Shown here: in pieces, positions 9,445-27,428 of the stretch
Position numbering within the stretch: the first letter of the stretch is position 1
Layout: each line of letters begins with the position of its first letter
Assembly: GCA_038728085.1 (NCBI GenBank)
Contig: JAVYUU010000002.1
Span: 1-64,000 of the forward strand
Direction: 5' to 3'
Length of the DNA: 64,000 nucleotides
Source of the DNA: Candidatus Bathyarchaeia archaeon
GTDB taxonomy: Archaea; Thermoproteota; Bathyarchaeia; Bathyarchaeales; Bathycorpusculaceae
Made by a program: the position numbers and the translations under genes
The notes under the pieces: model-generated
The model's database searches: none
What the model was told of the DNA's origin: nothing
The model's input: only the letters and a program-made list of their open reading frames with translations

Positions 9445-11264
9445 ATTCCGAGCTCCCTAAGCTTCTCTTCCGAAGGCATCCCATCAGGGGTCCAGCCTCG
9501 GGCTTCATAGTATTCCCTTAGCATGAGTTCCATGTCTGGAACATTTCTCATGGTGCCGCCATCCTGTGGCTCCAGCAGCCTTCTTGGAAGAACATCATCC
9601 TTTGAGGATACCCCCCACCTGCAGTTAAGCACCCTTTTAAGGTTGAAGCTTCTTTCACCAACCTTCATCAGATCCTCCACGGCTACCCTTCTGCCAGTTA
9701 CAAGCTCAAAGAACACTGTTATCTGTGTGAGGGTTAAGCCGGCTGAGGATGCATACTTGCATATCATCAATGCATCGTAAAGCTCCATCATGTCCTGCAT
9801 TTTCTTAACGGTTATGGCTTTTCCTTTCGACTGGAACCTGTCGCTCTGCACTGTGATGCCAATTTCGGGTGCAAGCCTTCCCCTGTCCGGGTTATGTGGC
9901 CAGGCAAGGTGGCATCCTCCACGGTTCATTGTTGCATAGCTTAGGGCATGGCCGAAGAAGGCTCTTGGGTTGTGGGCGGCAACCTCGAGGCCTTTAACGT
10001 GGACGGCGAACTCCTCGCTTCCACGGTTCAACAGTCTGGCTGCTTCTCGAACGCCTTGAGCCAGCAGGCTGCCTATGCCTTTCCTTTCCGCTATCAACTC
10101 GACCAGTTTAACCAGATATTCGGATGGACCCCATGTGAGTTCCATTCCGCCAGTGTCCTCTTTTGTTATTATCCCCTTTTCGTAGGCTTCTATGGCGAAG
10201 GCGAGAACAGCCCCAACGGAAATCGTATCCATCCCCAGCCTGTTGCATAAGTCATTCAACTTTGCAATGAGGGAGAGATCGTCATTGAGCAGGTTTGAGC
10301 CCAACATGCATAAGGTTTCAAATTCCGGGCTGTCCGCCTTTAGACAGGCATACTTCCCATCCCTTATGTGAATCGTGCGCTTGCATCCTATAACACAATT
10401 GCAGCACGGCGTTATCTTGTCCAAGATTGTTTGGGCTATTTTGACTCCGCTGATTTTCTCCACCTTATCCTCAGCCCAAACGCCGTCTCTGTGATTTCTT
10501 ATGGGTATGTTGCCCATGTGATAGTAGGACTCCATGCCTCCGCCGGTGCCGTACTTGCGGAGGCCTTGGGCAGCCGGACTTTTGGCCAGCTGCGTTTGCA
10601 CCTCTCTTGCAAACTTTAGCAGAGCGTCCTCATCGGCCACGGGGATTTTGCCTGTTCCCTTGACGGCCACAGCCTTCAAGTTTTTAGAGCCCATGACCGC
10701 GCCCATGCCTGATCTTCCGGCTTTGCCTACACCAAAAATTATTGAGGCATAATACACACGTTTTTCGCCAGCTGGTCCTATGGCGCCTATCTGGACAGCG
10801 TTGTCCTTAAGCTCCCTTTTTATGAGGCTGTAAGTTTCGTAAACGTCTTTGCCCCAGAGGTTTCTTGCATCCTTGAATTCGACATGGCCGTCCATTATGG
10901 ACAGGTAGACCGGCTTTTCCGCCCTACCGCTTATGACGATTAAGTCGAAGCCCGCCTTCTTAAGCTGCTGACCAAACAAGCCTCCAGCATGTGACTCCCC
11001 CCAAATTCCAAGCGGAGACCTTGCACAAACACTGAGACGCCCAGAAGAGGGAACGGCTGTCCCTGTAAGGGGTCCGGTGGCAAATATCAGAAGGGCCTCG
11101 GGACTAAAGGGATCCACGTCGGAGGGCATCTCATCATAGATTATTTTTGCGGCTAAACTTGAGCCGCCCACATATTTTTCTTTCAAGTGTTGGGGGAGAC
11201 TTTCAGCTTTAACCCGCTGATTTGTAAGGTCTACTCGTAGAATTTTGCCTACATACCCAGTCAT
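9441..11264 (-). CDS. Aldehyde ferredoxin oxidoreductase family enzyme (AOR1)
   Basis: 607 aa, standard length. The N-terminal domain (MTGYVGKILRVDLTNQ, GTAVPSSGRLSVCARSPLG, GESHAGGLFG) binds the bis-pterin cofactor, and the cluster ligands PCCNCVIGC (C-x2-C-x3-C, about residues 288-295) with a later Cys in ETLCMLGSN hold the 4Fe-4S centre. AORs oxidise aldehydes to acids, or run in reverse, with ferredoxin and a tungsten or molybdenum pterin. It is the last gene of a minus-strand run (U32-like, creatininase-like, cupin, AOR), 50 bases after the cupin gene. The substrate is unknown. Confidence 0.92.
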   Translation of the reverse strand: MTGYVGKILRVDLTNQRVKAESLPQHLKEKYVGGSSLAAKIIYDEMPSDVDPFSPEALLIFATGPLTGTAVPSSGRLSVCARSPLGIWGESHAGGLFGQQLKKAGFDLIVISGRAEKPVYLSIMDGHVEFKDARNLWGKDVYETYSLIKRELKDNAVQIGAIGPAGEKRVYYASIIFGVGKAGRSGMGAVMGSKNLKAVAVKGTGKIPVADEDALLKFAREVQTQLAKSPAAQGLRKYGTGGGMESYYHMGNIPIRNHRDGVWAEDKVEKISGVKIAQTILDKITPCCNCVIGCKRTIHIRDGKYACLKADSPEFETLCMLGSNLLNDDLSLIAKLNDLCNRLGMDTISVGAVLAFAIEAYEKGIITKEDTGGMELTWGPSEYLVKLVELIAERKGIGSLLAQGVREAARLLNRGSEEFAVHVKGLEVAAHNPRAFFGHALSYATMNRGGCHLAWPHNPDRGRLAPEIGITVQSDRFQSKGKAITVKKMQDMMELYDALMICKYASSAGLTLTQITVFFELVTGRRVAVEDLMKVGERSFNLKRVLNCRWGVSSKDDVLPRRLLEPQDGGTMRNVPDMELMLREYYEARGWTPDGMPSEEKLRELGI

Positions 11265-13581: not shown

Positions 13582-14883
13582 TTAGGGATAGTTTATCACA
13601 CCCTTCCTTTTAAGCTCCTCCAGTTCCTCCTCGTTTAGGCCCACAAGCTCCCTTAGAACCCTCTTGGTGTCCTCTCCAAGCTTTGGGACACCCCTCCAAA
13701 TTCTTCCCGGTGTCTTAGAGAATTTGGGGACTATTCCGATTTGTTTCACAAATGTCTCTGTTGTGGAATCCAGAACCTCAACTATGTCGCCTCTTTCAAT
13801 CCAATGTTTGTCCTTTAGAGCATCATCCGGCGTTGACACTCTTGAGCATGGTACATCATACTTGTTGAAGTGCTCCTCTATCTCCTCTCTCGTGTGGCTT
13901 TTAAGATATTCATTCAGAATTCTATCAAGCTCCCTGCCCTTCGGACTGTTTATGGCCTCGGGGCTTCCGGAGCACTCCTCATAGGGGAAGTCCTTGGGGT
14001 TTATTCCTGTAACATCGGCTAAAGCCTTTATGAATCGGCTGTAGGTTTGGGGTCCCACGGCTCCTATAGCCACCCAGCCGTCTTTTGCCTTGTAAAGTCC
14101 ATAGGGCTGCTGATTGAAAACTCGGTAGACGCCCTCTTTCTCCCTTAACACGCCAAGATTATAATACATGGTATGATACATTTCGATTATTCTGGCTATG
14201 GCCTCAAACTGTGCCGTGTCCACAACTTGGCCTTCCCCGGTTTTCTGCGCGTGGATGTAGGCTGCTAGGGCTCCGATTGTTCCGAAGAGGGCTGTGATGT
14301 AGTCTCCCGCGTAGAGGGGCAGCCGGTAAACTTCATGCTCCGGGGTTGAGGCTAGCTTGCACCATCCGGAATATGCCTGTGAAATTATGTCGTAGCTGCC
14401 TCTCCTGCATTTTTTGGGGTCTCCGCCAAACTCTGGCCGCCCATACCCGCTCACATGCACTATCACAATTTTGGGATTAACCCTGAAAATATCTTCATCC
14501 TTTATCCCAAATCTCTCTTCAAGCCAGACAAGGCTTTCAACAAATATGTCGGATTGCCTAATGAGCTCAAAGAATATTTTCTTCCCTTCCTCGGCCTTCA
14601 TGTCCAAGGCTACGCTGAGCTCGTTTCTTCTAACACACACAAATTCTCCGCCAATTTTTCTGCCGTTGGCCTCATAGAATGGGGGAAGCAGCCTCATGGT
14701 GTCACCGGTGTCCGGCCTTTCTATGTGTATTACTTCTGCTCCAAGGTCGCCGAGCAGTGTGCCTATGGTGGGGCCGGCCACTATGCTTCCGGCAACCAGA
14801 ACCCTAATCCCGCTCAGCGGGCCATACTCAGGTGAAAAATGTGGGGCTGAAATTCTTCCAGCGGGCATAAGTTGATTTGACAC
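13582..14883 (-). CDS. Family III (CaiB/Frc-type) acyl-CoA transferase
   Basis: 433 aa, the usual size. The N-terminus GPLSGIRVLVAGSIVAGPTIGTLLGDLGAEVIHIE is the family signature, here seen in part as VLVAGSIVAGPTIGTLL. Other motifs are NELSVALDMK, the nucleophile Asp in YAGDYITALFG and VDTAQFEA. These enzymes move CoA between carboxylic acids. It is followed after 2 bases by the dehydrogenase/hydratase fusion, and together they would activate an acid and carry it through hydration and oxidation. Carnitine, 2-hydroxyacids or branched acids are all possible substrates. Confidence 0.9.
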   Translation of the reverse strand: MSNQLMPAGRISAPHFSPEYGPLSGIRVLVAGSIVAGPTIGTLLGDLGAEVIHIERPDTGDTMRLLPPFYEANGRKIGGEFVCVRRNELSVALDMKAEEGKKIFFELIRQSDIFVESLVWLEERFGIKDEDIFRVNPKIVIVHVSGYGRPEFGGDPKKCRRGSYDIISQAYSGWCKLASTPEHEVYRLPLYAGDYITALFGTIGALAAYIHAQKTGEGQVVDTAQFEAIARIIEMYHTMYYNLGVLREKEGVYRVFNQQPYGLYKAKDGWVAIGAVGPQTYSRFIKALADVTGINPKDFPYEECSGSPEAINSPKGRELDRILNEYLKSHTREEIEEHFNKYDVPCSRVSTPDDALKDKHWIERGDIVEVLDSTTETFVKQIGIVPKFSKTPGRIWRGVPKLGEDTKRVLRELVGLNEEELEELKRKGVINYP

Positions 14884-14885
14884 CT

Positions 14886-16850
14886 CTAAAATTGGGGTTT
14901 CCTCTTATACATGAAGGCTTGGATCCCCTCAGCAACCTCTTCTGATGGAGAGATGTCCCCTGAAACCGTGGATTCTATGAAGCATCCGGTCTCCAATGAG
15001 GGCATGACTCCAAGAGCCACCGCCTTCTTGAAATATCTAACTGCGAGTGGAGGGAGCTCCGCCACCCTTTTGGCGAATTCAAAGGCTTTTTCCATAAACT
15101 CCGCACTTGGATAAACCTCAGAAACCAAGCCGAGCTCCAGCGCCTGCTTCGCGTCGATGTTTTTTCTCAGAAGTATTATATCTTTGAGTCTGCCAACGCC
15201 TACTAGGTAGGCTAGCCTCTGGGTTCCACCCCAGCCGGGTGTTATTCCAAGGTTTAGCTCCGGAAGCCCCATGAAGGCTTTATCGCTCATAACCCTCAAG
15301 TCGCAGGCCAACGCCAACTCAAAGCCTCCGCCTAGCGCCGGCCCATTTATCGCCGCGATTACAGGCTTCGGGTAAAGCTCAATCCTTCTGAGAACCTTGT
15401 GGCCAGCCTGGCTTGACTCAACAACGAGCTCCGGCCTTCCAGAGGCGAAAATTGAGATGTCTGCTCCGGCGCAGAAGTTTCTCCCAACCCCCGTGATCAT
15501 TATGGCTCTCACTTCGGCGTCCTCCTCAAGCATGCTTAAAGCGTCGTCGATCTCCTTGAGGAATGTTAAGTTGAGCGCATTAGCCCTTCTTGGCCTGTTA
15601 AGGTATATGATGCCAACGTTTTCGCGTTTTTCAACTATGACAAACTCGTACTTTCCCCTTCCATACTCGTAGAAGCCTTTGCCCGTTTTCCTTCCAAGCC
15701 TGTTCTCCTTAACCATCTGTTGAAGGACGGGGTTGGGCTTGTATCTTTCCTCCCCATACTTCTTGTAAAGTTCCTCCAGCTTTGCTACTATTCTATCGAT
15801 TCCTATGTCGTCGGCCATGCGGAGTAGGCCTCTTGGATAATTAAGTCCATTTAAAACTGCAAGGTCTATTTCCTCAGCGGTTGTTATGCCCTTCTCTATA
15901 AGCCATGCGGCTTCATTAACTGCCGGGGCGATCAGCCTGAGCACGTCAAATTTTGCCCCAGCCCTAAATGGAACCTCGTTTGTTTTGCCCCCGCTCCAGT
16001 CATAGAAGCCTCTGCCCGTCTTCTTCCCATAATGCCCAGCCTTGTAGAGCCTCTCAAAAAGTGGTGCAGGTCTATATGTTTCTCCAAGAGTCTTCCTAAA
16101 ATACTCTAAGACATGATAGCTTATGTCAATGCTTCCGCCGCCGAGAACATCGTGAAGTTCAAAAAGGCCCATGGGAAGGCCCATCACATACTTAACTGCG
16201 GAATCTATCTCCTCTACGGTGCCTTCACCCATCTCCACGGCCCATGCGGCTTCATTCGACATTGTGACGAAAATCCTATTCACTATGAAGCCGGGGACAT
16301 CCTTTTTCACGTGGACTATGATTCTGTCGATTTCCTTGGCGAATTCCTCAGCTATTTTGACGGTTTCTTGACTGGTTTTTTCGCCCCACACTATCTCGAG
16401 CAGTTTAAGGATTTTTGGTGGGTTGAAGAAGTGCATTCCTATCATTCTTTCAGGCTTTTTTACTGCCGTCGCAAGCTCCGTCACGCTTAACGAGGAGGTG
16501 TTTGTGGCGAATATCGCATGTTCCGGCGCGTACTTGTCAATTTCGCTGAAAACCCTCTTTTTCAGGTCCATTATTTCTGGAACAGCCTCGATTATTATGT
16601 CTGCGTCTCTTACAGCCTCAGCGAGGTTCACTGTTGCCTTTATTCTCTTCATTACGTCCTCGATGTTTTCGGTTACGTATCCCTTCTCATGGCTGCTTTT
16701 AAGTTCGCCTCTTATTTTTCCAAGGGCTTTCTGGAGTATTTCCTCGCTTATATCCACCAATTTCACGTGAAAGCCCTTAGTTGCAACAACCTCTGCGATG
16801 GCACTTCCCATGGTTCCCGCGCCGATAACTGCTACGTTTCTAACCCTCAA
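14886..16850 (-). CDS. Fused 3-hydroxyacyl-CoA dehydrogenase / enoyl-CoA hydratase
   Basis: 654 aa. The N-terminal NAD Rossmann domain (VAVIGAGTMGSAIAE, residues 7-21) is followed by the dehydrogenase active site GMHFFNPP (His) and LLEIV (Glu), two HADH C-terminal repeats (about 185-280 and 295-385, each with KTGRGFY or KTGKGFY) and a crotonase domain from about 395 with oxyanion-hole loops NFCAGADI and GPALGGGFELA and both catalytic Glu (GGGFEL, GLPELNLG). It resembles the archaeal bifunctional crotonyl-CoA hydratase/(S)-3-hydroxybutyryl-CoA dehydrogenase. It lies divergent from the thiolase gene, which supplies the next step. Confidence 0.93.
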   Translation of the reverse strand: MRVRNVAVIGAGTMGSAIAEVVATKGFHVKLVDISEEILQKALGKIRGELKSSHEKGYVTENIEDVMKRIKATVNLAEAVRDADIIIEAVPEIMDLKKRVFSEIDKYAPEHAIFATNTSSLSVTELATAVKKPERMIGMHFFNPPKILKLLEIVWGEKTSQETVKIAEEFAKEIDRIIVHVKKDVPGFIVNRIFVTMSNEAAWAVEMGEGTVEEIDSAVKYVMGLPMGLFELHDVLGGGSIDISYHVLEYFRKTLGETYRPAPLFERLYKAGHYGKKTGRGFYDWSGGKTNEVPFRAGAKFDVLRLIAPAVNEAAWLIEKGITTAEEIDLAVLNGLNYPRGLLRMADDIGIDRIVAKLEELYKKYGEERYKPNPVLQQMVKENRLGRKTGKGFYEYGRGKYEFVIVEKRENVGIIYLNRPRRANALNLTFLKEIDDALSMLEEDAEVRAIMITGVGRNFCAGADISIFASGRPELVVESSQAGHKVLRRIELYPKPVIAAINGPALGGGFELALACDLRVMSDKAFMGLPELNLGITPGWGGTQRLAYLVGVGRLKDIILLRKNIDAKQALELGLVSEVYPSAEFMEKAFEFAKRVAELPPLAVRYFKKAVALGVMPSLETGCFIESTVSGDISPSEEVAEGIQAFMYKRKPQF

Positions 16851-16967: not shown

Positions 16968-18170
16968 ATGTGGATGGTTATTATGCCGGGTGTAAGGGAC
17001 AAAGTTGCCATAATAGGTATGGGTTGTACAAGGTTTGCTGAACACTGGGACAAAAGCGTCAACGACCTGATTGTTGAAGCATGCTATGAAGCCTTCGAGG
17101 ACGCCAACATGGAACCCAGGGAAATCCAAGCGGCATGGTGGTCCACGGCTAGAAGCGGCGAGCTGGGCCGCAGTTTAGCTTACCCCCTAAAACTCAACTT
17201 TATTCCGGTCACGCGGGTTGAGAACAGATGCGCAAGTGGACACAACGCCTTTATTGATGCGTGTTACGCCGTTGCATGCGGTGCCTTCGATGTTGTTCTC
17301 GTTTGCGGTGCGGAAAAACTTAAGGATACGGGGTTGCCGATACCCGGGGACAGCAATCCCACAGACCTTTACACTAGCAGGGTTGATCCCCGCTTTATGC
17401 CTGTAACCTCCTTCGCCCAGCTTGCACTGAGATATTTTCACTATTATGGCATTCCAGTAGATGAGGGTAGGAGGATTTTGGCCAAGATTGCCGTTAAAAA
17501 CCACTATAATGGTTCATTGAATCCTAAAGCCCAGTTCCAGCGTAAAATAACCCTCGAGGAGGCGTTGAATGCGCCGATAGTCGCTTGGCCCTTAGGGCTT
17601 TATGACTGCTGTGGTGTAAGCGATGGGGCGGCTGCCGCCATAATTGTTCGCGCCGACTTGGCCAAAAAATATCGGGACGATTATGTCCTTGTGAAAGGCG
17701 TGGGGATGAGCACGGGCTTTTATCATGGGCAAGTGCAGGATGACTGGAGCTTGACGCATATAGAGGAGAACTTTAGAGCCGCGAGGATGGCTTACGCTGA
17801 AGCGGGCATCACTAATCCCCGTAAGGAGCTGGATTTGGCTATAGTGCACGACTGTTTCACGATACATGAGCTTGTAATTTATGAGGATTTTGGCTTCTCT
17901 CCTAGGGGAAAGGCGAAGGAAGACGTGGATGCGGGAGCCTTCGAGTTGAAGGGTGAGCTGCCCGTGAACACGGACGGCGGCTTAAAGTCCTTTGGACACC
18001 CAGTTGGCGCCAGCGGACTCAGAATGATGTATGAAGTTTACAAGCAACTTCAGGGAAAGGCTGGTCCACGGCAAGTGAACATAAGAAACCAGTTGGGATT
18101 GACGCATACATGTGGCGGCACCCCAATTGATTCTCAGACGGCCGCCGTGGTTATACTTGGGCTGAGGTGA
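16968..18170 (+). CDS. SCP2-type thiolase
   Basis: 400 aa. The nucleophilic Cys is in VENRCASGHNAF (about residue 88), the HDCF motif (about 297) replaces NEAF as in SCP-x-type thiolases, the catalytic His is in SFGHPVGASG and the second Cys in HTCGG. All active-site residues are therefore present. Start choice between ATG 16968 and ATG 16983 is open. The next gene, 7 bases on, encodes an HMG-CoA-synthase-like/DUF35 fusion. In archaea thiolase, HMG-CoA synthase and DUF35 protein are known to form one complex that channels acetoacetyl-CoA, and a related pairing occurs in BbsAB. The pathway here is likely thiolytic cleavage or condensation of a specific acyl-CoA. Confidence 0.9.
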   Translation: MWMVIMPGVRDKVAIIGMGCTRFAEHWDKSVNDLIVEACYEAFEDANMEPREIQAAWWSTARSGELGRSLAYPLKLNFIPVTRVENRCASGHNAFIDACYAVACGAFDVVLVCGAEKLKDTGLPIPGDSNPTDLYTSRVDPRFMPVTSFAQLALRYFHYYGIPVDEGRRILAKIAVKNHYNGSLNPKAQFQRKITLEEALNAPIVAWPLGLYDCCGVSDGAAAAIIVRADLAKKYRDDYVLVKGVGMSTGFYHGQVQDDWSLTHIEENFRAARMAYAEAGITNPRKELDLAIVHDCFTIHELVIYEDFGFSPRGKAKEDVDAGAFELKGELPVNTDGGLKSFGHPVGASGLRMMYEVYKQLQGKAGPRQVNIRNQLGLTHTCGGTPIDSQTAAVVILGLR

Positions 18171-18177
18171 GATAGGA

Positions 18178-19584
18178 ATGGTTGGAGTTTCCTCATATGG
18201 CGTTCACATCCCTGTATGGCGGATAAAGCGAGAACTCCTTGGTAAAGGGTTGCCGGGTGAAAGGGCTGTTGCCGGCAAGGATGAGGACAGTCTAACAATG
18301 GCGGTGGCTGCAGCCCTAGACTGTCTTGAGGGTGTTAATGGCGGCTCCATCGACGGCATATTCTTTGCCTCGACAACACCTCCATTCTATGAGAAAAGCG
18401 TGTCTGCCACCATAGCCGCTGTTCTTGACGCTCGCCGCGAGGTGTTCACAGCCGACTTCTCGGGATCGCTTAGAGCTGGCACAACAGCGCTTAAGGTTGC
18501 CCTTGAAATGGTTAGGGCGGGTTCAGCGGATAGAATTCTTGTGGCTGCAGCTGACTGCCGGCTGGGGGCTCCCGGCACACCTCTTGAACAGACATTTGGA
18601 GACGGTGCAGCTGCTCTTCTGGTGGAAAGGGACGCGAAAATTGCGGATGTAGAGTTTGCCGCGCATGTTTACGACGAGATTTATGATATATGGCGTAGAG
18701 ACGTTGACCTCTTTGTCAATTCATGGGAAGACCGATACGTTTACACATGCGGCTACATGAGAGTTGTCAAGGAAACAATTTCAAGGCTTATGGATAAAAG
18801 TGGTCTAAACCTAAAGGATGTGGCTAAGGTTGTGCTTCCAGTCCCTGAATCCAGAAGGGGAATAGAGCTTGCCAAGAGTTTAGGCTTAGATCCCAAAACG
18901 CAGCTCCAAGACCCCCTCATGGAAGTTATGGGCAACACTGGGACAGCTCAGCCGCTCATGTTGTTTGCAGCAGCCCTTGAAGAGGCGAATCCTAACGACT
19001 GGATATTAATGGCAAGCTATGGAAGCGGAGGTGACGCTTTCCTCTTCAAAGTCAAGGAGAACTTGAAAATGCCATCTCTTGGGAAAAAGAAAATCGCCCA
19101 AAAAATAGCGAACAAAAAGACGCTTCCCGATTACATCACCTACCTCAAGTGGCGCAAACTCGTCAAAACACCTGAACCAAGAGTGGACATGACTGTTTCT
19201 TATCCAAGCGCCGTTGCCATTTGGAGGGAAACCCACCGCATCTACCCACTCCACGGGGTAAAATGCAAGGTATGCGGCACCGTTCAGTATCCACCCCAAA
19301 GAGTATGCGTAAAATGCCAATCCAAAGACAATTTCGAGGAAGTCCGGCTATGCGACAAAAAGGGAAGGCTGTTCTCCTACTCTTTCGACCCAATAAGAGA
19401 GAACACGCCAGTCGGCCTAATAAACCTCGAGGGGGGAGGCAGAGTTTTCCTTGACTTGACAGACGTTGATGCCGAGGAGCTGAAAATCGACATGCCAGTG
19501 AAGCTGACCTTCAGAAGGGTAGACCTTAGACGCGAGGATGGCATGTACGTCTACTTCTGGAAAGCCACGCCGATAAGAGAATGA
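18178..19584 (+). CDS. HMG-CoA-synthase-like protein lacking the catalytic Cys, fused to a DUF35 domain
   Basis: 468 aa. The thiolase-fold part (1-300) follows archaeal HMG-CoA synthase (MVGVSSYGVHIPVWRIK, FGDGAAALLVE, GNTGTAQPLML). The active-site segment, where the family has a Cys before a conserved K/R-A-G-T, reads ADFSGSLRAGTTAL: Leu occupies the Cys position. After a linker, residues 360-468 form a DUF35 unit, a rubredoxin-like zinc knuckle (CKVCG...CVKCQ) and an OB fold (RLFSYSFDPI onwards). The DUF35 part probably bridges and organises the thiolase complex. Mevalonate synthesis is unlikely without the nucleophile. Confidence 0.85.
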   Translation: MVGVSSYGVHIPVWRIKRELLGKGLPGERAVAGKDEDSLTMAVAAALDCLEGVNGGSIDGIFFASTTPPFYEKSVSATIAAVLDARREVFTADFSGSLRAGTTALKVALEMVRAGSADRILVAAADCRLGAPGTPLEQTFGDGAAALLVERDAKIADVEFAAHVYDEIYDIWRRDVDLFVNSWEDRYVYTCGYMRVVKETISRLMDKSGLNLKDVAKVVLPVPESRRGIELAKSLGLDPKTQLQDPLMEVMGNTGTAQPLMLFAAALEEANPNDWILMASYGSGGDAFLFKVKENLKMPSLGKKKIAQKIANKKTLPDYITYLKWRKLVKTPEPRVDMTVSYPSAVAIWRETHRIYPLHGVKCKVCGTVQYPPQRVCVKCQSKDNFEEVRLCDKKGRLFSYSFDPIRENTPVGLINLEGGGRVFLDLTDVDAEELKIDMPVKLTFRRVDLRREDGMYVYFWKATPIRE

Positions 19585-19657
19585 AGCCTTTTCCACGGAA
19601 AAATTGAAAAGCTCCTCGCAAGCCAAAACTAAAGCGTGGTGCGTCGCTGTGAAAGCC

Positions 19658-20674
19658 ATGCGCGTGCACGAATATGGACAACCATTAAGGCTTGATGAGG
19701 TGGAACCGCAAAAACCCGGACCAAAGGATGCCATGGTGAAAATTGAGGCGTGCGGAGTATGCCACACAGACATCCACCTAGCTGAAGGCGCTTTGAAAAC
19801 AGAGGTTTTCGGCGGCAAGAGACCATGGATTCTCGGGCATGAAATCGCCGGGAAAATTGTTGAAGTAGGCTCAGAAGTTGCCGACGTCAAGGTTGGTGAT
19901 ACGGTTTTAGTTGACTCATGGACAGCATACACATGTGGCCTGTGCGTGCCCTGCAGAACAGGATTTGAAAACTGCTGCATCAACAACAGACCCATAGGAT
20001 TCGGCAGGGACGGCGGATACGCCGAATACATAACAGTTCCAGCCAGAGCGCTCATAAAAATTGAAAACCTAAAACCGCAGGACGCTGCACCCCTAGCCTG
20101 CGGAGGCGTCACGGTTTTCAGAGCCCTAAGAAAGGCTGCAGTGACCCCAAGCGACACCGTTGTGGTTTATGGAGCCGGCGGCTTGGGAATGTTCGCCGTC
20201 CAATTAGCCAAATTTATGGGTTCAACAGTTATAGCCGTAAGCCGATCCGCCGAGAAACTTGAAATGGCCAAAAAGTTCGGGGCAGACTACATTGTTGATG
20301 CATCCAAAGACCCAGTAAATGAGGTTTTAAAGTTGACCAATGGGCGTGGCGCAAACGTTGTTTTGGACATGGTTGGCCTCGAGCAAACATTAGAAAATGG
20401 ATTGAAAATGCTGGGCGTGCTAGGCCGCTTCTTTGTCATCGGAGTAGGTCCAGGTCCGCTTAAGTGTTTACCTGACACGGCTGTTAACTTTGAGTTAACA
20501 ATTTCAGGCGTAAAGGTTGGCACGCATAAGGATTTAGTCGACCTAGTCGAGTTGGCCAAAAAGGGTTTCGTGAAGCCCATAACAACAAAAACCTTCAAAC
20601 TGAGGGACGTCAACGAAGCCCTTGAGCGAGTTAAGAAAGGCGAAATTCTAGGAAGATGCGTGATCAAGCCTTAA
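19658..20674 (+). CDS. Zinc-dependent alcohol dehydrogenase (MDR family)
   Basis: About 338 aa from ATG 19658. The frame is open to a TTG at 19604, but family homology begins at MRVHEYGQPL, and GTG 19649 is another option. Catalytic zinc ligands: Cys in EACGVCHTD and His-Glu in GHEIAGK. Structural zinc: the Cys run TCGLCVPCRTGFENCC. NAD(P) site VYGAGGLGMFAVQLA. It lies some 70 bases after the DUF35 fusion gene and is probably cotranscribed. It may act on an alcohol, aldehyde or 6-hydroxy-CoA-type intermediate of the same pathway; the substrate is unknown. Confidence 0.9.
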   Translation: MRVHEYGQPLRLDEVEPQKPGPKDAMVKIEACGVCHTDIHLAEGALKTEVFGGKRPWILGHEIAGKIVEVGSEVADVKVGDTVLVDSWTAYTCGLCVPCRTGFENCCINNRPIGFGRDGGYAEYITVPARALIKIENLKPQDAAPLACGGVTVFRALRKAAVTPSDTVVVYGAGGLGMFAVQLAKFMGSTVIAVSRSAEKLEMAKKFGADYIVDASKDPVNEVLKLTNGRGANVVLDMVGLEQTLENGLKMLGVLGRFFVIGVGPGPLKCLPDTAVNFELTISGVKVGTHKDLVDLVELAKKGFVKPITTKTFKLRDVNEALERVKKGEILGRCVIKP

Positions 20675-20820: not shown

Positions 20821-20877
20821 TTTATATACAGTTTACAAAATACGTTGTCTGAGCCGGGATGGAGGCTTTCACTCCAT
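20821..20877 (+). promoter_or_regulatory. Promoter and start-codon hairpin of the ABC transporter operon
   Basis: TTTATATA at 20821-20828 is a strong TATA box about 50 bases before the start at 20876, placing the transcript start near 20850. In the leader, ATGGAG (20859-20864) is the exact reverse complement of CTCCAT (20872-20877) with a 7-base loop. The stem pairs the GGAGG ribosome binding site with the start codon, so translation could be controlled by opening this hairpin. The rest of the 200-base spacer 20675-20820 shows no gene. Confidence 0.45.
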
Positions 20878-22153
20878 GAAAAAGCCTTTGCTTTTAAGTA
20901 AAGCCGCAATAACCAAGATGCAGGCTATCATTATCGCCGTGATAATCATCATCGCGGCCATCGCGGGAGTTGCCTACTACTTCTACAGTAAGCCTCCGGT
21001 GGAGAAGACGGAGATAGTTATCGGTGTTGTGCACTCTAAAACTGGGGTTATGCAGCCCCAGATGATTTATCACGTCTACCAGATGTGGCTTGTCAACAAG
21101 ACAAATGCTAAGGGCGGCCTTTACGTGCCGGAGTACGGCAAACGTCTACCCATCAGAGTCATAGAATACGATGACGAGAGCAACCTTGAAAGGATGCTTA
21201 CCCTAACCAAGAAGCTAATAATTGAGGATAAAGTTGACCTAATCTTTGCGCCCATAAGCACCGCCTTCTGCTTCGCGGCGTTCTCGCTCTACGAGCAGTA
21301 CCATTATCCAGTAATCGCCCTAACATTCGGCTCAGACATCGCCGCGGAGAAGATGAGGACAGGCGAATACAAGTACTGCTTCTCCGTACTCGGCATGCCC
21401 TCCGAAACGGGCAAAGAAGTAGCCGACCTCCTAGTACATGTAAACAGCACTAAAACCCGCATCTCCAAGATTGGCATACTATTCCACGCAGACCAGCATG
21501 GCGTGGAATATGCCGGAGCCATATACTCTAACCTCGCTATGAAAGGGTTCAGCATTCCAGTCTACCAGTCCTATCAACCCTACACTACAGACTTTACGCC
21601 AATGATAAACAGTCTTAAAGATGCAAATGTGGACGTGGCAATTCTATGCGGCTATCAGGAGGGCTCAACCTTCATAAAGCAATGCAAGACCCTGAACTTC
21701 AATCCAAAGCTTATATTCACCGGCCCAACAATAGAAGTTCCATTCCTAGTCTACGGACCTTTCGGATTCACAAAGCAAGATCTTATAGGCGTATGCTACT
21801 ATGATGGTTGGCCAGCCACAGCTTACAACACTCCAACACTACAGCAATGGCGTCAAGAACACGTGCAACACTTTGGCTATGAGCCGTTCCCCGCCTCAGC
21901 CGTGTTCTATGCGGCTATTGAATGCCTATTCCAAGCTGTTGAAAGGGTTGGCCTTGACAGGGAGAAAATCAGAAATGCCCTTGCAACCCAAGAGTTCGAC
22001 ACCATCGTAGGCAAGACCAGGCTTAGGCCGGGCTATAGCATGCAATGCGAATTAGCGGGCACGATAACCCAGTGGCAAGGCGGAGATATCATGGAGGTTG
22101 TTTGGCCACTAAGCGCCAAATCAGCAGACATAGTGCTGCGGCCTGGATACTGA
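20876..22153 (+). CDS. ABC importer substrate-binding protein (Liv/branched-chain amino acid type)
   Basis: 425 aa. An N-terminal membrane anchor (about 14-38) is followed by a type I periplasmic-binding fold: IVIGVVHSKTGVMQPQM, then LTKKLIIEDKVDLIFAPIST, ADQHGVEYA and AILCGYQEGSTFIKQ. In archaea such proteins stay anchored outside the membrane and hand the ligand to LivHM. Ligands of the family include branched-chain amino acids, amides, urea and aromatic acids, and the pocket cannot be read here. The location between CoA-thioester and methyltransferase genes suggests that it imports the substrate of that region. Confidence 0.9.
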   Translation: MKKPLLLSKAAITKMQAIIIAVIIIIAAIAGVAYYFYSKPPVEKTEIVIGVVHSKTGVMQPQMIYHVYQMWLVNKTNAKGGLYVPEYGKRLPIRVIEYDDESNLERMLTLTKKLIIEDKVDLIFAPISTAFCFAAFSLYEQYHYPVIALTFGSDIAAEKMRTGEYKYCFSVLGMPSETGKEVADLLVHVNSTKTRISKIGILFHADQHGVEYAGAIYSNLAMKGFSIPVYQSYQPYTTDFTPMINSLKDANVDVAILCGYQEGSTFIKQCKTLNFNPKLIFTGPTIEVPFLVYGPFGFTKQDLIGVCYYDGWPATAYNTPTLQQWRQEHVQHFGYEPFPASAVFYAAIECLFQAVERVGLDREKIRNALATQEFDTIVGKTRLRPGYSMQCELAGTITQWQGGDIMEVVWPLSAKSADIVLRPGY

Positions 22154-22187
22154 TCTCCCCCTCTTTATTTTTGGATGGTGACCCCTC

Positions 22188-23048
22188 ATGTTGGACATAT
22201 TGATTGGAGGTGCAATTTTAGGAGCAATATTCACCCTAGTCTCTATCGGATTGAACCTCCAGTATGGTGTGACCCGAATATTAAATATAGCCCACGGAGA
22301 CTTCATGGTGCTTGGCGCCTACTTAACCTACGTTTTCGTTCAAAGCTTAAGTCTGTCCCCCCTAGCCGCCATGGTGATAGGCGCGCCCCTAGTATTCCTT
22401 TTGGGCGTTATAATTCAGTTGGCCATCTTCCGTTGGCTGGTGCGGCTCTCCAAATCCGCGGAGGAGCTTGAATTCAGGTCGCTCTTAGCATGCTTTGGGC
22501 TTTCATTCATAATCCAAAATGTGCTGTACCAGATATTTGGCCCTTATCCTATAGGCAACCCATGTCTTGACCAAGCCATAAACGTTATGGGGCAACCCTG
22601 CCGACTAAACATGATCGTGGCTGCTGGTATATCAATAGCAATAAGCCTAGCCCTATACTTTCTACTGCGCTATACCCGAATTGGGCTGATTATGAGAGCT
22701 ACAGTTGAAGAGCCCACAGGCGCCCAGATAGTTGGGATAAATATATACAAGGTTCACGCGTTATCCTTTGGTTTGGGAGCCTTTTTAAGCGCCCTGGCTG
22801 GTTCACTGTGGTCCACGATTTATTTGGACATTTACCCATATTCAGGGGCCACCTTCACCTTCATCGCCCTAACTATCATAGTTTTGGGTGGGATGGGAAG
22901 CTTTATGGGCAGCCTCGCTGGAGGCTTCATTCTGGGATACCTCTACTATATAACCTACAAGTTTGAACCTCTCCTGCACATGGCGGTGGTTTACATTTTC
23001 CTCCTCATAATGCTGATAGTTAGACCAAAAGGATTGTTCGGGAGATGA
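22188..23048 (+). CDS. ABC transporter permease, LivH type
   Basis: 286 aa integral membrane protein with about eight hydrophobic segments. The family motif GLNLQYGVTRILNIAHGDFMVLGAY (seen here in part as GVTRILNIAHGDF, about 28-40) and the late loop TIIVLGGMGSFMGSLAGG identify LivH. The start ATG 22188 follows a T-rich stretch after the binding-protein gene, so the upstream gene may be expressed at a higher level. Four bases separate it from livM. Confidence 0.92.
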   Translation: MLDILIGGAILGAIFTLVSIGLNLQYGVTRILNIAHGDFMVLGAYLTYVFVQSLSLSPLAAMVIGAPLVFLLGVIIQLAIFRWLVRLSKSAEELEFRSLLACFGLSFIIQNVLYQIFGPYPIGNPCLDQAINVMGQPCRLNMIVAAGISIAISLALYFLLRYTRIGLIMRATVEEPTGAQIVGINIYKVHALSFGLGAFLSALAGSLWSTIYLDIYPYSGATFTFIALTIIVLGGMGSFMGSLAGGFILGYLYYITYKFEPLLHMAVVYIFLLIMLIVRPKGLFGR

Positions 23049-23052
23049 TTCT

Positions 23053-24012
23053 ATGAACGAGAAACAGGAATTATGGAAAAGCCTGCTGGGTTTCTTGGCG
23101 CTGATAGCCGTCTTGACAGGCGCACCTTACCTTCTAAACAACATATATTACCTGAACGTCTTAAGAGATGTGATCTTCTGGGTGGCCCTCTCCGTAAGCT
23201 GGTACCTGTTCTCCGGCCTTACAAAATATGTGGCCTTGGGCTCCGCTGCCTTCTTCGGTTTAGGACTATACTTCACCGCTAAAGTCTTAAATTATTGGCC
23301 CGTCCTGCCCTTCCCGGTTGTGGTGATTTTGGCTGGGCTTCTGAACTTCACAATAGCCCTAGCTGTCGGCCTGATTTCTTTGAGGCTTAAGGGCATATAC
23401 TTCGCCATAGTCACTTTCGGAATAGCTGAAATAGTGAAAGTGATCTTTGACTGGTGGGAGATAAGGATTACAGGAACCCTTGGAACATATCTACCCATCT
23501 TCAGCGACATAACAACCTACTACTCAATATTAACGACGTCCCTAACATCGCTAGTGCTGGTCACACTCTTGCGTAGGTCAAAGTTTGGTCTAGCCTTAAG
23601 GATGATAGGTGAAAGCGAGGAGACCGCCGCGCACACCGGTGTGAACACAAGCCTGTACAAAACCATAGGCTTTGCAATCAGCGCCGCCTGCATAGGCCTT
23701 GTAGGAGCAAGCTGCATCACCATATCCCCCTACACAAACACGCGCATAGCCTTCGGATCCCGCTACTCATTCTATCCCGCCGTAATGACCCTACTTGGAG
23801 GAGCAGGGACGCCCTACGGGCCGGTGATAGGCGCGTCGGCGCTATCCCTAATCAACGAATACCTCAGTGTGGCGTTCCCCCAGGTCTTCCAGATAATCCT
23901 AGGCGCACTGCTGATAATAATAGTCCTCGTAATGCCTAACGGCATCATGGGCATTGTTGAGAAATTCAAAACATTAGGTTCCCGGGAAGGGGAAAAGAAG
24001 AAGGAGGATTAG
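23053..24012 (+). CDS. ABC transporter permease, LivM type
   Basis: 319 aa with about nine membrane segments. Diagnostic parts are KYVALGSAAFFGLGLY (about 57-72), LRLKGIYFAIVTFGIAEI and MTLLGGAGTPYGPVIGA. It partners LivH to form the pore. Its stop overlaps by 4 bases the stop region of the ATPase gene on the opposite strand, so the permeases and ATPases converge tail to tail instead of forming one operon. Confidence 0.92.
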   Translation: MNEKQELWKSLLGFLALIAVLTGAPYLLNNIYYLNVLRDVIFWVALSVSWYLFSGLTKYVALGSAAFFGLGLYFTAKVLNYWPVLPFPVVVILAGLLNFTIALAVGLISLRLKGIYFAIVTFGIAEIVKVIFDWWEIRITGTLGTYLPIFSDITTYYSILTTSLTSLVLVTLLRRSKFGLALRMIGESEETAAHTGVNTSLYKTIGFAISAACIGLVGASCITISPYTNTRIAFGSRYSFYPAVMTLLGGAGTPYGPVIGASALSLINEYLSVAFPQVFQIILGALLIIIVLVMPNGIMGIVEKFKTLGSREGEKKKED

Positions 24013-24713
24013 AGGCCCAGAAACGCCTTTCTAACATACTCGTTGTTTAGCAGGTCTGACCCCTTGCCCTCCAAGGTCACTTTTCCAGTTTCAATAACAT
24101 AGGCGCGATCAGCATATTTCAATGCCTGATAAACATTCTGCTCGGCGAGGAGAATGCTGACCCCCCGCTCTTTAAGCCTCTTTAACGCTTCAAAAACCTC
24201 TAGGACTATTTTGGGAGCCAAACCCTGCGATGGTTCATCCAAAATTAGCAGCTCCGGATCTGACATTAAACCCCGGGCTATGGCGAGCATCCTTTGCTCT
24301 CCTCCGCTCAGGGTGGAAGCTGCCTGTTTCTCCCTATCCCTTAGTACTGGGAAAAGCTGGTAAACCTCCTTGAGTTTCTCTTCTCTTGAACGTCCCCTCC
24401 TCGAGCCGTGAGCGCCTAAGATAAGGTTTTCACGGACACTCATGCCTGCGAAAAGTTTTCTGTCCTCCGGTATGAAGGCTATTCCAAGATTCACGATTTT
24501 ATATGGCGGCAGATCGTTGATCACCCTGCCGTTAAAGCGGATAACCCCTGAAGCTGGCTTCAGAAGCCCGGCAATAGTGCTTAAAAGGCTGGTTTTTCCA
24601 GCTCCATTGGCGCCTACGAGGGTCACAAATTCTCCCTTTTCAACGTGAAGGGAGGCATTCCACAAGACTTGGATTTTGCCGCGTAGAACGTTTAGTTTTT
24701 CAACTTCGAGCAT
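24009..24713 (-). CDS. ABC transporter ATPase, LivF type
   Basis: 234 aa. Walker A GANGAGKTS (about 33-41), signature LSGGEQRMLAIARGL, Walker B ELLILDEPSQGLAP and the switch His position replaced by AEQN, which is usual for LivF. It overlaps the livG-like gene by 14 bases. This second operon must be balanced with the plus-strand permease genes to build one transporter. Confidence 0.92.
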   Translation of the reverse strand: MLEVEKLNVLRGKIQVLWNASLHVEKGEFVTLVGANGAGKTSLLSTIAGLLKPASGVIRFNGRVINDLPPYKIVNLGIAFIPEDRKLFAGMSVRENLILGAHGSRRGRSREEKLKEVYQLFPVLRDREKQAASTLSGGEQRMLAIARGLMSDPELLILDEPSQGLAPKIVLEVFEALKRLKERGVSILLAEQNVYQALKYADRAYVIETGKVTLEGKGSDLLNNEYVRKAFLGL

Positions 24714-25434
24714 AGGCCTCGCCTAGAAAGGCTTCGATAACCGCGGGGTTTCGAGTTATCTCCTTCGGCTTGCCCTCGGCTATTTTTACTCCCTGATGTA
24801 GGGCCATTATGCGGTCTGTTATCTCCATTATGGCGCGCATGTTATGCTCTATCATGAAGATTGTTATTCCCTCCTCGTCCCGCAGTTTCCGAATCACCTT
24901 AAGCAGTTGACCTGTCTCTGTTGGATTTAAACCCGCCATCACTTCATCCAAAAGCAGTAGTTGAGGCTTTATTGAGAGGGCTCTGACTATTTCAAGCATT
25001 CTAAGCTCGAACACTGTTAAGTTTGAGGCGGGCATTCTGCTTTTTTGGGCTAACCCAAACTTTTCAAGCAGCGCGTTCAATTCTCGTTTAGTATCGGCAA
25101 GCTTGCCCTTAGCGCATCCGAAAAGCGCTGCAGCCCAAACATTCTCATAAACGGTCATGTTGAGGAATGGTTTTGGTATCTGGAATGTTCGCCCTATGCC
25201 CAGCCTGCAAATTTCGTGGGGCTTGAGGCCTGTAATGTTCTTGTCCTTAAATTTTATGGTTCCAGAAGTGGGACGGAAGGTTCCCGAGATCACATTGAAG
25301 AGGGTGCTTTTCCCAGCTCCATTGGGCCCTATGAGGCCAACTATTTCCTCCTCATCTATGCTGAAGTCCACGTTGTTAAGGGCTGTTAACCCGCCGAATT
25401 TCTTGGTAACCTTTATTCCCTCAATAAATCCCAA
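24700..25434 (-). CDS. ABC transporter ATPase, LivG type
   Basis: 244 aa. Walker A GPNGAGKST (about 36-44), Walker B QLLLLDEVMAGLNPTE and switch His in FMIEHNM. The signature motif is unusual: where LivG normally has LSYGQQR, this protein reads LTVFELRMLEIVRAL. The rest of the helix is intact, so a functional partner of LivF is still likely. It lies 20 bases after the end of the URO-D methyltransferase gene on the same strand, so the ATPases and the methyltransferase genes may share a transcript. Confidence 0.9.
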   Translation of the reverse strand: MGFIEGIKVTKKFGGLTALNNVDFSIDEEEIVGLIGPNGAGKSTLFNVISGTFRPTSGTIKFKDKNITGLKPHEICRLGIGRTFQIPKPFLNMTVYENVWAAALFGCAKGKLADTKRELNALLEKFGLAQKSRMPASNLTVFELRMLEIVRALSIKPQLLLLDEVMAGLNPTETGQLLKVIRKLRDEEGITIFMIEHNMRAIMEITDRIMALHQGVKIAEGKPKEITRNPAVIEAFLGEAYARS

Positions 25435-25454: not shown

Positions 25455-26777
25455 TTATTTGTACACGCCGTATTTCTTTGTGGCTTCGATCATGGCCTTA
25501 ACGTTCTCCGGCTTTGCCTGATCAATAACTGCTCCATTCATCACTATAAATCCTCCGCCTTCGCCGGCCACCTCAATGAGGTTTTTAATGTATTTTTCCA
25601 CGTCCTTCGGGGAGCCCACTTGCAGCAAATGGCTTGGAACGTTGCCTCCGATACACGCTACATCGCCTAAAATCTCCTTGGCTCTACGCATGTCTGTTTG
25701 GTCGAAGCCCCAAATGGTCTTGCCCTTAGGCAGATCCTTGATGATTTCTAGACGTGAGCCATAGGCGCCTTCAGCCCATGGGAAGGGCACACATCCCTCA
25801 TCTATTAAGCCCAAAATGACCTTTTTGAGTGTTGGCCAATAGAAGGTTTCAAACTGCTTAATGGACATGAAACCGTCAGCACCCTTATGCAGCGGTATGA
25901 ACACTATGGGGTTTCCATTCATTTTTGCCGCTGAGGCTCCCATTTTAATCATTAGGGGTGTTATTTCCTCCATAGCTTGGAGAAGCTTGTCCTTGTTGCG
26001 GTACATGTCCAGCATTATCCCCCTTGTTCCCCTCAGAGTGTCGCCTAACACGTCGAAGGGCGCCTTTGTTCCACCGCCGAAAAAGTTTGGAAAGCCTAGG
26101 CCTGCTATTTCCTTTTCCCATGCCACCACATATCCTATCCACTTTAGGGCTTCGTTTCCAGCCTCCATGATAGCTTTTAATGCCGCTTGGACATCTGGGA
26201 AACCGAATGGTATGAAGTTGGCTGGCGTGAAGCCTCCATACATTTCTAGGATGTTGGTGAAGCGCGGAAGCTTTTTGAAGGGCTCCAAGGCTCCGAAAAT
26301 CCTTGGGAAATACGTTGTTAAGAAGAAATGTGTTGGATCCTCAATTAGGGCGTCATATTCTTCCGCCTTCATGTATTCGCCTTCAATGCACTGATAAGAG
26401 CTCTCCTTGGGAACCCCGTGTCCAGGCCAAGCATATAGTTTGTAGTCGAGAATTTCGAAGAATCTGCCAGGACCTGGCCCTATTACTCCTACATGAGCGT
26501 CTGGCTCGAAATCTAGGACGTACTTTTTGAAGGCGAAGGTTAGCTTTTCATAGTCATACATCATGTCGTAGGGTGTTAAACCAACATAGTAGGCGGGGAA
26601 AAACCCTATTATTGGAAAGACAGGCACCCTGTCGGGCAACTTTTTCAGTTCAATAGCATCCTTTATTCGGGTAACTCTCCCCTTGTAGCCTTTTTCAGCC
26701 TCTTCGCTGGCGAATTTTACGCCATCCGGAGAAAGCCACCGTTTAAACAGTTCTTCCCGCTTTTCGTCTGCCGACAA
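25455..26777 (-). CDS. Uroporphyrinogen-decarboxylase-like corrinoid methyltransferase
   Basis: 440 aa, URO-D superfamily barrel with late motifs IGGNVPSHLLQVGSPKDVE and KPENVKAM. It is not heme-pathway UroD: it directly follows a corrinoid-protein gene with no gap, the classic context of methyltransferases such as MtaA/MtbA and O-demethylases such as MtvB/MtoB. The H-x-C-G zinc motif of MtaA/MtbA is absent; the equivalent strand reads PFPWAEGAYGSRLE, and the late Cys position reads VMNGAV. It would take a methyl group from a donor (or pass it on) through the partner corrinoid protein. The donor is unknown. Confidence 0.85.
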   Translation of the reverse strand: MSADEKREELFKRWLSPDGVKFASEEAEKGYKGRVTRIKDAIELKKLPDRVPVFPIIGFFPAYYVGLTPYDMMYDYEKLTFAFKKYVLDFEPDAHVGVIGPGPGRFFEILDYKLYAWPGHGVPKESSYQCIEGEYMKAEEYDALIEDPTHFFLTTYFPRIFGALEPFKKLPRFTNILEMYGGFTPANFIPFGFPDVQAALKAIMEAGNEALKWIGYVVAWEKEIAGLGFPNFFGGGTKAPFDVLGDTLRGTRGIMLDMYRNKDKLLQAMEEITPLMIKMGASAAKMNGNPIVFIPLHKGADGFMSIKQFETFYWPTLKKVILGLIDEGCVPFPWAEGAYGSRLEIIKDLPKGKTIWGFDQTDMRRAKEILGDVACIGGNVPSHLLQVGSPKDVEKYIKNLIEVAGEGGGFIVMNGAVIDQAKPENVKAMIEATKKYGVYK

Positions 26778-27428
26778 CTATTTCACCCCCACCCATTTTT
26801 TGGCTAGAGCAACGGCTTCCATAGCGTCTTTGCCATAAGCGTCAGCTCCAACGTATCGCTTAACCTCCTCGGTTATCTGGCCTCCTCCAATCATTATTTT
26901 GACTTTGTCTCTTAGACCAGCCTTCTCTATGGCCTCAACGGTTCTTTTCATAGAGTCGAAGGCCAACGTTAGGAAGCCGCTTAAGCCAACAATTGTGGCG
27001 CCCGTTTCCCTTATTTTCTCCACAAACTTTTCCTCTGGGACGTCCACGCCGAGATCGTAGACTTCGAAGCCGTTAACCTCCAGCATGAAAACAACTATGT
27101 CTTTGCCGATGTCATGTATGTCTCCGGCCACCGTTCCAATGACAATTTTGCCCAGCTTCTTGGTTTGGGCCTCTTTTGCGGCGAGTTTGGGCTTTATTAG
27201 GGCTGTTATCTCCTTTAATATTTCACCAGCATAGATTAGGTCGGATATGAAGTATTCGCTGTTGGCAAAACGGTTGCCGACGATTTCCATTCCCCTGCGG
27301 ACATAATCCATGATTTTGAATGGGTCTTCACCAGCATTAAGCAGGTCCTTGACAAGTCTGAGGGCCTCTTCCTCCTTTAAATCAGCCAGAGCGTTCACAA
27401 GATCATCTGGTTTTCCCATCTTAACCAC
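26778..27428 (-). CDS. Corrinoid-binding methyl carrier protein (MtaC/MtbC/MtoC type)
   Basis: 216 aa. The N-terminal four-helix cap (about 5-90, with LKEEEALRLVKDLL and EYFISDLIYAGEI) is followed by a B12-binding Rossmann domain. Cobalt-ligand motif D103-x-H105-x-x-G108 is in GDIHDIGKD, with the later GLSGFLTLAFDSMK and GGGQIT loops that hold the nucleotide tail. It directly precedes the URO-D methyltransferase gene, so the two form a methyltransferase pair. The likely activator is the ferredoxin-ASKHA protein at 6433-8319, and the likely acceptor enzyme is the MtrH-like protein. Confidence 0.93.
   Translation of the reverse strand: MVKMGKPDDLVNALADLKEEEALRLVKDLLNAGEDPFKIMDYVRRGMEIVGNRFANSEYFISDLIYAGEILKEITALIKPKLAAKEAQTKKLGKIVIGTVAGDIHDIGKDIVVFMLEVNGFEVYDLGVDVPEEKFVEKIRETGATIVGLSGFLTLAFDSMKRTVEAIEKAGLRDKVKIMIGGGQITEEVKRYVGADAYGKDAMEAVALAKKWVGVK

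Follow-up and report, generated by a model that had tools for sequence, protein, structure and literature searches.

The closest described relatives of the system analyzed here are assemblies that combine thiolase-superfamily proteins with DUF35. In the archaeal acetoacetyl-coenzyme A (CoA) thiolase/HMG-CoA synthase/DUF35 complex (6ESQ, 6ET9), which serves mevalonate synthesis, the three parts are separate and the 3-hydroxy-3-methylglutaryl-CoA (HMG-CoA) synthase (HMGCS) is catalytic, with residues Cys114 and Glu82, as cited in PMC6392133. According to the same paper, the HMGCS-like PhlA subunit of PhlABC carries Gly115 and Cys83 where the catalytic Cys and Glu would be, only PhlC residues act in the reaction, and all three subunits are required. 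PhlABC (PpATase) is a Friedel–Crafts acylase with A2C2/B4 subunit organization, and it and its relatives (9SKH; MucABC, 9VBO) consist of a live thiolase, an HMGCS-fold protein lacking the Cys and Glu, and DUF35. The SSO2064 paper presents PhlA as an inactive thiolase-superfamily member and describes DUF35 fused to thiolase-superfamily domains (PMC2954200). The working principle is thus already known. Here we analyze a gene pair from Candidatus Bathyarchaeia archaeon in which an intact thiolase gene is followed by a gene for a catalytically dead HMGCS-like domain fused to DUF35. The pair lies in a window of 64,000 nucleotides (GCA_038728085.1, contig JAVYUU010000002.1, positions 1 to 64,000). 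We propose, with a probability of about 0.75, that the fused protein is a non-catalytic pseudoenzyme that acts as the scaffold or pocket-forming subunit of a two-protein degradative thiolase.

The window pair contains every part of a PhlABC-type system, namely a live thiolase, an HMGCS-like protein lacking the Cys and Glu, and DUF35. It departs from precedent in carrying the dead synthase and DUF35 in one protein, in falling on its own side of a tree and in its degradation context. PhlA and PhlB, by contrast, are separate proteins, have Gly115/Cys83 where the fused family has Leu/Thr, and belong to secondary rather than catabolic metabolism. By sequence, all three parts match the archaeal complex best, the DUF35 and thiolase parts each lying nearest the corresponding chain of 6ESQ, although that complex retains a catalytic synthase. 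Benzoylsuccinyl-CoA thiolase, BbsAB, likewise works in degradation and combines an SCP2-type thiolase with a DUF35 subunit (7PXP is among the matches). The first-pass annotation had likened the fused protein to BbsA-like partners of thiolases; PhlA plus PhlB is a closer analogue than BbsA, and the NCBIfam cut-offs for BbsA (32/250 bits) and BbsB (161.5/750 bits) are not reached. We take BbsAB to be a two-subunit enzyme without an HMGCS-like domain.

A dead synthase fused to DUF35 and its thiolase partner

The fused gene (18178–19584, + strand; 468 amino acids) was delineated from its open reading frame, a family alignment (A1) and an AlphaFold2 model. Its HMGCS-like, thiolase-fold domain (approximately residues 1–334; 18178–19179) is 30% identical to its fold match, 6ESQ chain I. 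Leu98 (codon CTT, 18469–18471), within the segment SGSLRAGTT, occupies the column of the nucleophilic Cys, as the first-pass annotation had recognized. Alignment with archaeal HMGCS sequences extends that observation, as Thr67 (18376–18378) stands in the catalytic Glu column and Pro221 (18838–18840) in the catalytic His column (HQPN motif), amounting to three losses rather than one. By comparison, Glu, Cys and His are kept in all 26 HMGCS reference loci, one of them from the window's own genome, a count that is partly circular because the frames were selected by any one of four motif strings, although every locus yielded a frame. The fused protein also scores below the NCBIfam HMGCS cut-offs (PRK04262, 212.4/244 bits; TIGR00748, 148.2/353 bits). 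In the first alignment, made of the query and 23 of 24 fetched loci (the 106-residue fragment L058 was excluded), Leu is present in 24/24 sequences, which excludes chance or sequencing error. A frameshift, a pseudogene or a lone substitution is ruled out as well, since the frame is open, three residues are gone and the relatives agree.

Pfam matches to ACP_syn_III/ACP_syn_III_C are followed in the same protein by zf-ChsH2 and OB_ChsH2_C, bearing out the proposed fusion to DUF35. The DUF35 part (19213–19581) comprises a Cys4 zinc ribbon (C363, C366, C377 and C380) and an OB fold, both above the Pfam cut-offs (27.2 versus 23.2 bits for zf-ChsH2; 34.7 versus 27.1 bits for OB_ChsH2_C), and across the family the four zinc-ribbon columns hold Cys in 107/107, 107/107, 106/106 and 106/107 rows. 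An AlphaFold2 model built from a 26-row alignment (mean pLDDT 82.8, pTM 0.88) predicts that the HMGCS fold is retained. Ranking first among fold matches to the HMGCS-like part (Foldseek, VIA-align 2) is 6ESQ chain I (Z 45.8, root-mean-square deviation 1.6 over 327 residues), followed by PhlA and its relative (Z ~44) and then MucA (Z ~41).

The neighboring thiolase (16968–18170, + strand; 400 amino acids) is identified by its open reading frame and by family and domain matches (NCBIfam PRK06157-like; Pfam Thiolase_N/Thiolase_C_1) as an SCP2-type enzyme. It has the nucleophilic Cys88, the HDCF motif (His294-Asp-Cys296-Phe) and the GHP motif (Gly-His344-Pro), and Cys88, His294, Cys296 and His344 are invariant in 20/20 aligned partner thiolases; the earlier description of this gene as keeping its catalytic residues was correct. 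Translation probably begins at 16983 (MPGV...), in agreement with the thiolases of loci L035, L036 and L043, a minor correction to the first-pass annotation.

Relatives of the fused protein occur well beyond this archaeon. A contig scan returned 24 loci from archaea, Desulfobacterota ('Deltaproteobacteria'), Nitrospinota, Chloroflexi (Chloroflexota) and Actinomycetota. With a profile of 26 members at E <= 1e-90, the family was found in 76/247 genomes of the phylum of the desulfobacterial genome G300, in 34/246 of that of the actinomycetotal G304 and in 12/201 of that of the chloroflexotal G303, which itself gave 15 profile matches at E <= 1e-20, fragments among them. Full members occur in 5/300 genomes searched in the archaeon's own phylum, at 58–100% identity; G266, from the same order as the window's genome, carries the pair. 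In genome G306, the sole other match to the family profile, presumably its HMGCS, scored E 7.0e-47. No paper describing a family of dead-HMGCS/DUF35 fusions was found in a literature search confined to one open-access library, and this broad family is apparently unnamed.

Loss of the catalytic residues extends across the family. A census of 119 hits, corresponding to 111 distinct members and 108 readable rows, finds Cys at the nucleophile column in none; the residues there are Leu (72), Thr (11), Gln (7), Val (6), Ile (5), Pro (3) and, once each, Met, Phe, Gly and Ser. Glu and His are likewise missing from their own columns in all 108. Twenty-six additional hits (20 actinomycetotal, among them L180, which duplicates L055, and 6 from plasmids) concur in lacking Cys, Glu and His, with Leu in 20, Gln in 3, Ile in 2 and Pro in 1 at the Cys column. 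The presence of Thr, Gln, Val, Ile, Pro and further residues at this column weakens the idea of a requirement for Leu as such; the property shared by all rows is that none has Cys. Nor does a substitute catalytic Cys emerge from the 108-row alignment, in which no Cys column outside the zinc ribbon is invariant. One locus, L068, encodes a family-like HMGCS domain (5984–7081, − strand; 366 amino acids) with Leu at the Cys column and its own thiolase, which has no fused DUF35 and is possibly an unfused relative.

A thiolase gene is an almost constant companion of the fused gene. In 136/145 hits, some of them places fetched twice, a same-strand thiolase lies within 450 nucleotides, and 7 of the 9 exceptions are near a contig or locus end, including L123, whose thiolase is 1,631 nucleotides off. 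Partner thiolases keep the Cys in 127/127 distinct pairs and His294, Cys296 and His344 in 119/119 readable ones. Within a single genome, moreover, each paralogue has its own thiolase, and among the nine paralogous pairs of G303 the fused-protein and thiolase distances correlate (r 0.87; none of 5000 permutations as high). Correlations in G305 and G300 (r 0.95 and 0.97; 201 and 198 of 5000 permutations as high) come from four pairs each, too few rows to carry weight. The family-wide triple loss and the near-constant adjacent, intact thiolase argue, at the level of sequence, for the first-pass proposal of a non-catalytic thiolase partner made from a dead synthase domain.

In the tree, the fused family forms its own side (SH-aLRT 95), live HMGCS proteins group together (99), and the Phl/Muc proteins join the live HMGCS (95). 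Common descent of the fused family with PhlA and MucA, apart from live HMGCS, is thus not recovered in this quick, unrooted tree, and we do not favor a loss shared with PhlA. We do not call independent loss proven, because the search was short, bootstrap support was not computed and MucA sits on a very long branch. Six archaeal rows (100) are nested within a mostly bacterial radiation, which would fit transfer from bacteria.

Degradative setting and a model for a proposed complex

Genes flanking the pair in the window suggest acyl-CoA breakdown. Divergent from the thiolase is a 3-hydroxyacyl-CoA dehydrogenase/enoyl-CoA hydratase fusion (14886–16850, − strand), which is kept beside the pair in L035, L036 and L058, and next to it lies a family III CoA-transferase (13582–14883, − strand), kept in L036. 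Downstream are a zinc alcohol dehydrogenase-like oxidoreductase, assigned by domain match (19604–20674, + strand), and a branched-chain-amino-acid-type (Liv) ATP-binding cassette (ABC) transporter (20876–25434) with a binding protein and two permeases on the + strand and two ATPases on the − strand; Pfam matches back the binding protein and one each of the permeases and ATPases. Transporter genes also occur near the pair in L036 and L037, and L036 (JZ_bin_23) shares the divergent layout of the window. Bacterial loci have recurring acyl-CoA dehydrogenase, enoyl-CoA hydratase and methylmalonyl-CoA-mutase-like genes, and in all six plasmid loci read an 'acetyl-CoA acetyltransferase' gene directly follows the fused gene, with acyl-CoA genes around.

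Some members carry a further domain. Loci L109–L117 have open frames of 811–939 amino acids, and Pfam scans of two of these (L109 and L116) place a short-chain dehydrogenase (SDR) domain after DUF35 in both and an SCP2 domain additionally in L109. The long frames are not thiolase fusions, as a separate thiolase frame follows in 9/9. An SDR as the extra domain would place the preceding β-oxidation step on the same polypeptide.

A further link to degradation comes from the estrogen (edc) cluster of Novosphingobium tardaugens, which includes an 'HMG-CoA synthase', EGO55_13555, bordered by a thiolase gene and, at its opposite end, by genes for a 3-hydroxyacyl-CoA dehydrogenase and an acyl-CoA dehydrogenase (PMC7793797). 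Its authors stated that such an enzyme makes no sense in a degradative route and left its role open (PMC7793797). On a plasmid of Novosphingobium sp. ES2-1 (L200), the genes running from acyl-CoA dehydrogenase through to P450 and TetR follow the published order, bar one extra short gene, and the fused gene there is a family member in which Leu fills the Cys column and Thr the Glu column; we equate EGO55_13555 with it by gene order, not by its own sequence. A term search did not find 'HMG-CoA' in the main text of a 2025 review of estrogen degradation (PMC12507874).

How might the two proteins work together? By analogy with the systems described above, we infer that the thiolase and the fused protein form a complex. 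An acid would be imported, activated by the CoA-transferase and oxidized, and the hydratase/dehydrogenase would yield a 3-oxoacyl-CoA. The neighboring thiolase would then perform the chemistry, most likely CoA-dependent cleavage of the 3-oxoacyl-CoA, a direction and substrate suggested by the gene context. The DUF35 domain would bind the thiolase as well as the HMGCS-like domain to which it is attached, like its counterparts in the 6ESQ-type complex and PhlABC. Unable to form an acyl-cysteine, the HMGCS-like domain would round off the architecture of the complex and would probably continue to line a shared CoA/acyl cavity.

Several observations count against this non-catalytic role. First, Leu is not universal at the Cys column (72/108), and the 11 Thr and the single Ser found there could in principle act. 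Second, Cys49, although not invariant, is Cys in 89/108 rows. Third, the profile used to collect the loci was built from Leu members and applied at strict E-values, biasing the set towards Cys-less members. Fourth, a recognized acyl-CoA gene lies within 4 kb in only 23/46 hits with 2.5 kb on both sides, a figure obtained from few seeds and without a background rate. Finally, L118 and L140 have no thiolase despite at least 400 nucleotides available on both sides, and the fused protein may therefore function differently in some cases.

The best-surviving alternative, which we nonetheless regard as unlikely, is that the HMGCS-like domain has acquired catalysis of its own through other residues, for example as a hydrolase, a hydratase or a second thiolase. 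Some residues that are invariant in alignment A1, R128 for instance, are not shared by the HMGCS of 6ESQ, and Ibero et al. proposed 'other activities (e.g., thiolase)' for the estrogen-cluster protein (PMC7793797). Against new catalysis stand the absence of Cys, Glu and His from the catalytic columns in every one of the 108 rows, the lack of any invariant Cys outside the zinc ribbon and the example of PhlA, the closest characterized non-catalytic relative, which gives no residue to the reaction (PMC6392133).

If the fused protein is indeed a non-catalytic thiolase subunit, there are several implications. A role could be given to proteins in degradation clusters that are labeled 'OB-fold domain-containing protein', '3-oxoacyl-ACP synthase III C-terminal domain-containing protein', 'hypothetical protein' or HMG-CoA synthase, including the estrogen-pathway protein called senseless in degradation (PMC7793797). 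Caution would be needed in reading mevalonate or ketone metabolism from such genes. More generally, the shaping of a thiolase's substrate range by a dead paralogue would become testable.

Two further features of the region are worth recording. A pair encoding a URO-D-type protein and a corrinoid (B12-binding) protein (25455–27428, − strand) adjoins the ABC transporter, a combination like that of corrinoid methyl-transfer systems. The region is also bordered by two aldehyde ferredoxin oxidoreductases (9441–11264, − strand, and 27571–29436, + strand), and a relative of the first lies close to the L036 pair.

A mirror image in mevalonate synthesis

The first-pass annotation had held that its proposal would fail if an organism in need of mevalonate had no second HMGCS. 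A search of the window's genome (archaeal, 1.43 Mb, 97.7% complete) located a second, catalytically intact HMGCS with DUF35 at its N-terminus (G000:C5:54126-55631, − strand; L002/L078), together with an HMG-CoA reductase, so this objection does not arise. Live-synthase fusions of HMGCS with DUF35 thus also exist, with DUF35 N-terminal in this genome and C-terminal in L014.

The thiolase beside the live synthase (G000:C5:55635-56861, − strand; L078/L155) has lost the Cys, HDCF and GHP motifs, reading RSFS, YDQS and GNP. Orthologues of this protein are found in 37/40 genomes of the archaeon's family (E <= 2.1e-76); the Cys is absent from all 24 orthologue loci read, and an HMGCS frame lies alongside in 22. 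Across 26 HMGCS loci of the phylum (L010–L034 and L078), a thiolase is present in the fetched stretch in 21, with Cys in 6 and without it in 15. Judged from these sequences, a dead thiolase seems to be a common feature of mevalonate pairs in Thermoproteota. The window pair joins a dead synthase to a live thiolase and the mevalonate pair a live synthase to a dead thiolase; either active site of the thiolase/HMGCS/DUF35 architecture therefore seems removable, with the scaffold retained.

Because the thiolase beside the live HMGCS lacks its Cys, acetoacetyl-CoA must come from elsewhere. This need lends some weight to a second alternative, in which the window pair makes C–C bonds like PhlABC or an acetoacetyl-CoA synthase and might, for example, supply acetoacetyl-CoA to the mevalonate pathway; its three-part composition equals that of PhlABC and of the archaeal complex. 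We consider this slightly less probable still than new catalysis, as full family members are rare among relatives (the 5/300 genomes of the phylum), the gene neighbors are degradative, and two further thiolases of the genome (L152 and L153) keep Cys, HDCF and GHP and could provide acetoacetyl-CoA. A retro-aldolase of the Ltp2/Sal kind, which likewise pairs a thiolase fold with DUF35 in degradation clusters in complexes described in PMC12329534, is very improbable, given that Sal relies on Tyr302 and Cys304 within a YDCY motif (PMC12329534), whereas the partner thiolases here keep the Cys in 127/127 distinct pairs and the HDCF and GHP residues in 119/119 readable ones.

Returning to the degradative two-protein thiolase, a broader generalization can be entertained tentatively, at somewhat less than even odds. 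The window pair may exemplify a widespread, unrecognized class of degradative thiolase holoenzymes, each composed of a live thiolase and a fused dead HMGCS–DUF35 protein and sometimes joined by the preceding dehydrogenase. The dead pocket might then supply one of the two halves of a shared tunnel through which the thiolase accepts bulky or ring-derived acyl-CoAs, catalysis might have been lost separately from PhlA, and the arrangement would mirror the mevalonate pair of many Thermoproteota.

Dead thiolase-like genes are also found elsewhere in the genome. Two adjacent ones, both lacking Cys, HDCF and GHP (L152/L154; G000:C4:49665-51993), have a live thiolase in their vicinity, along with two DUF35 matches.

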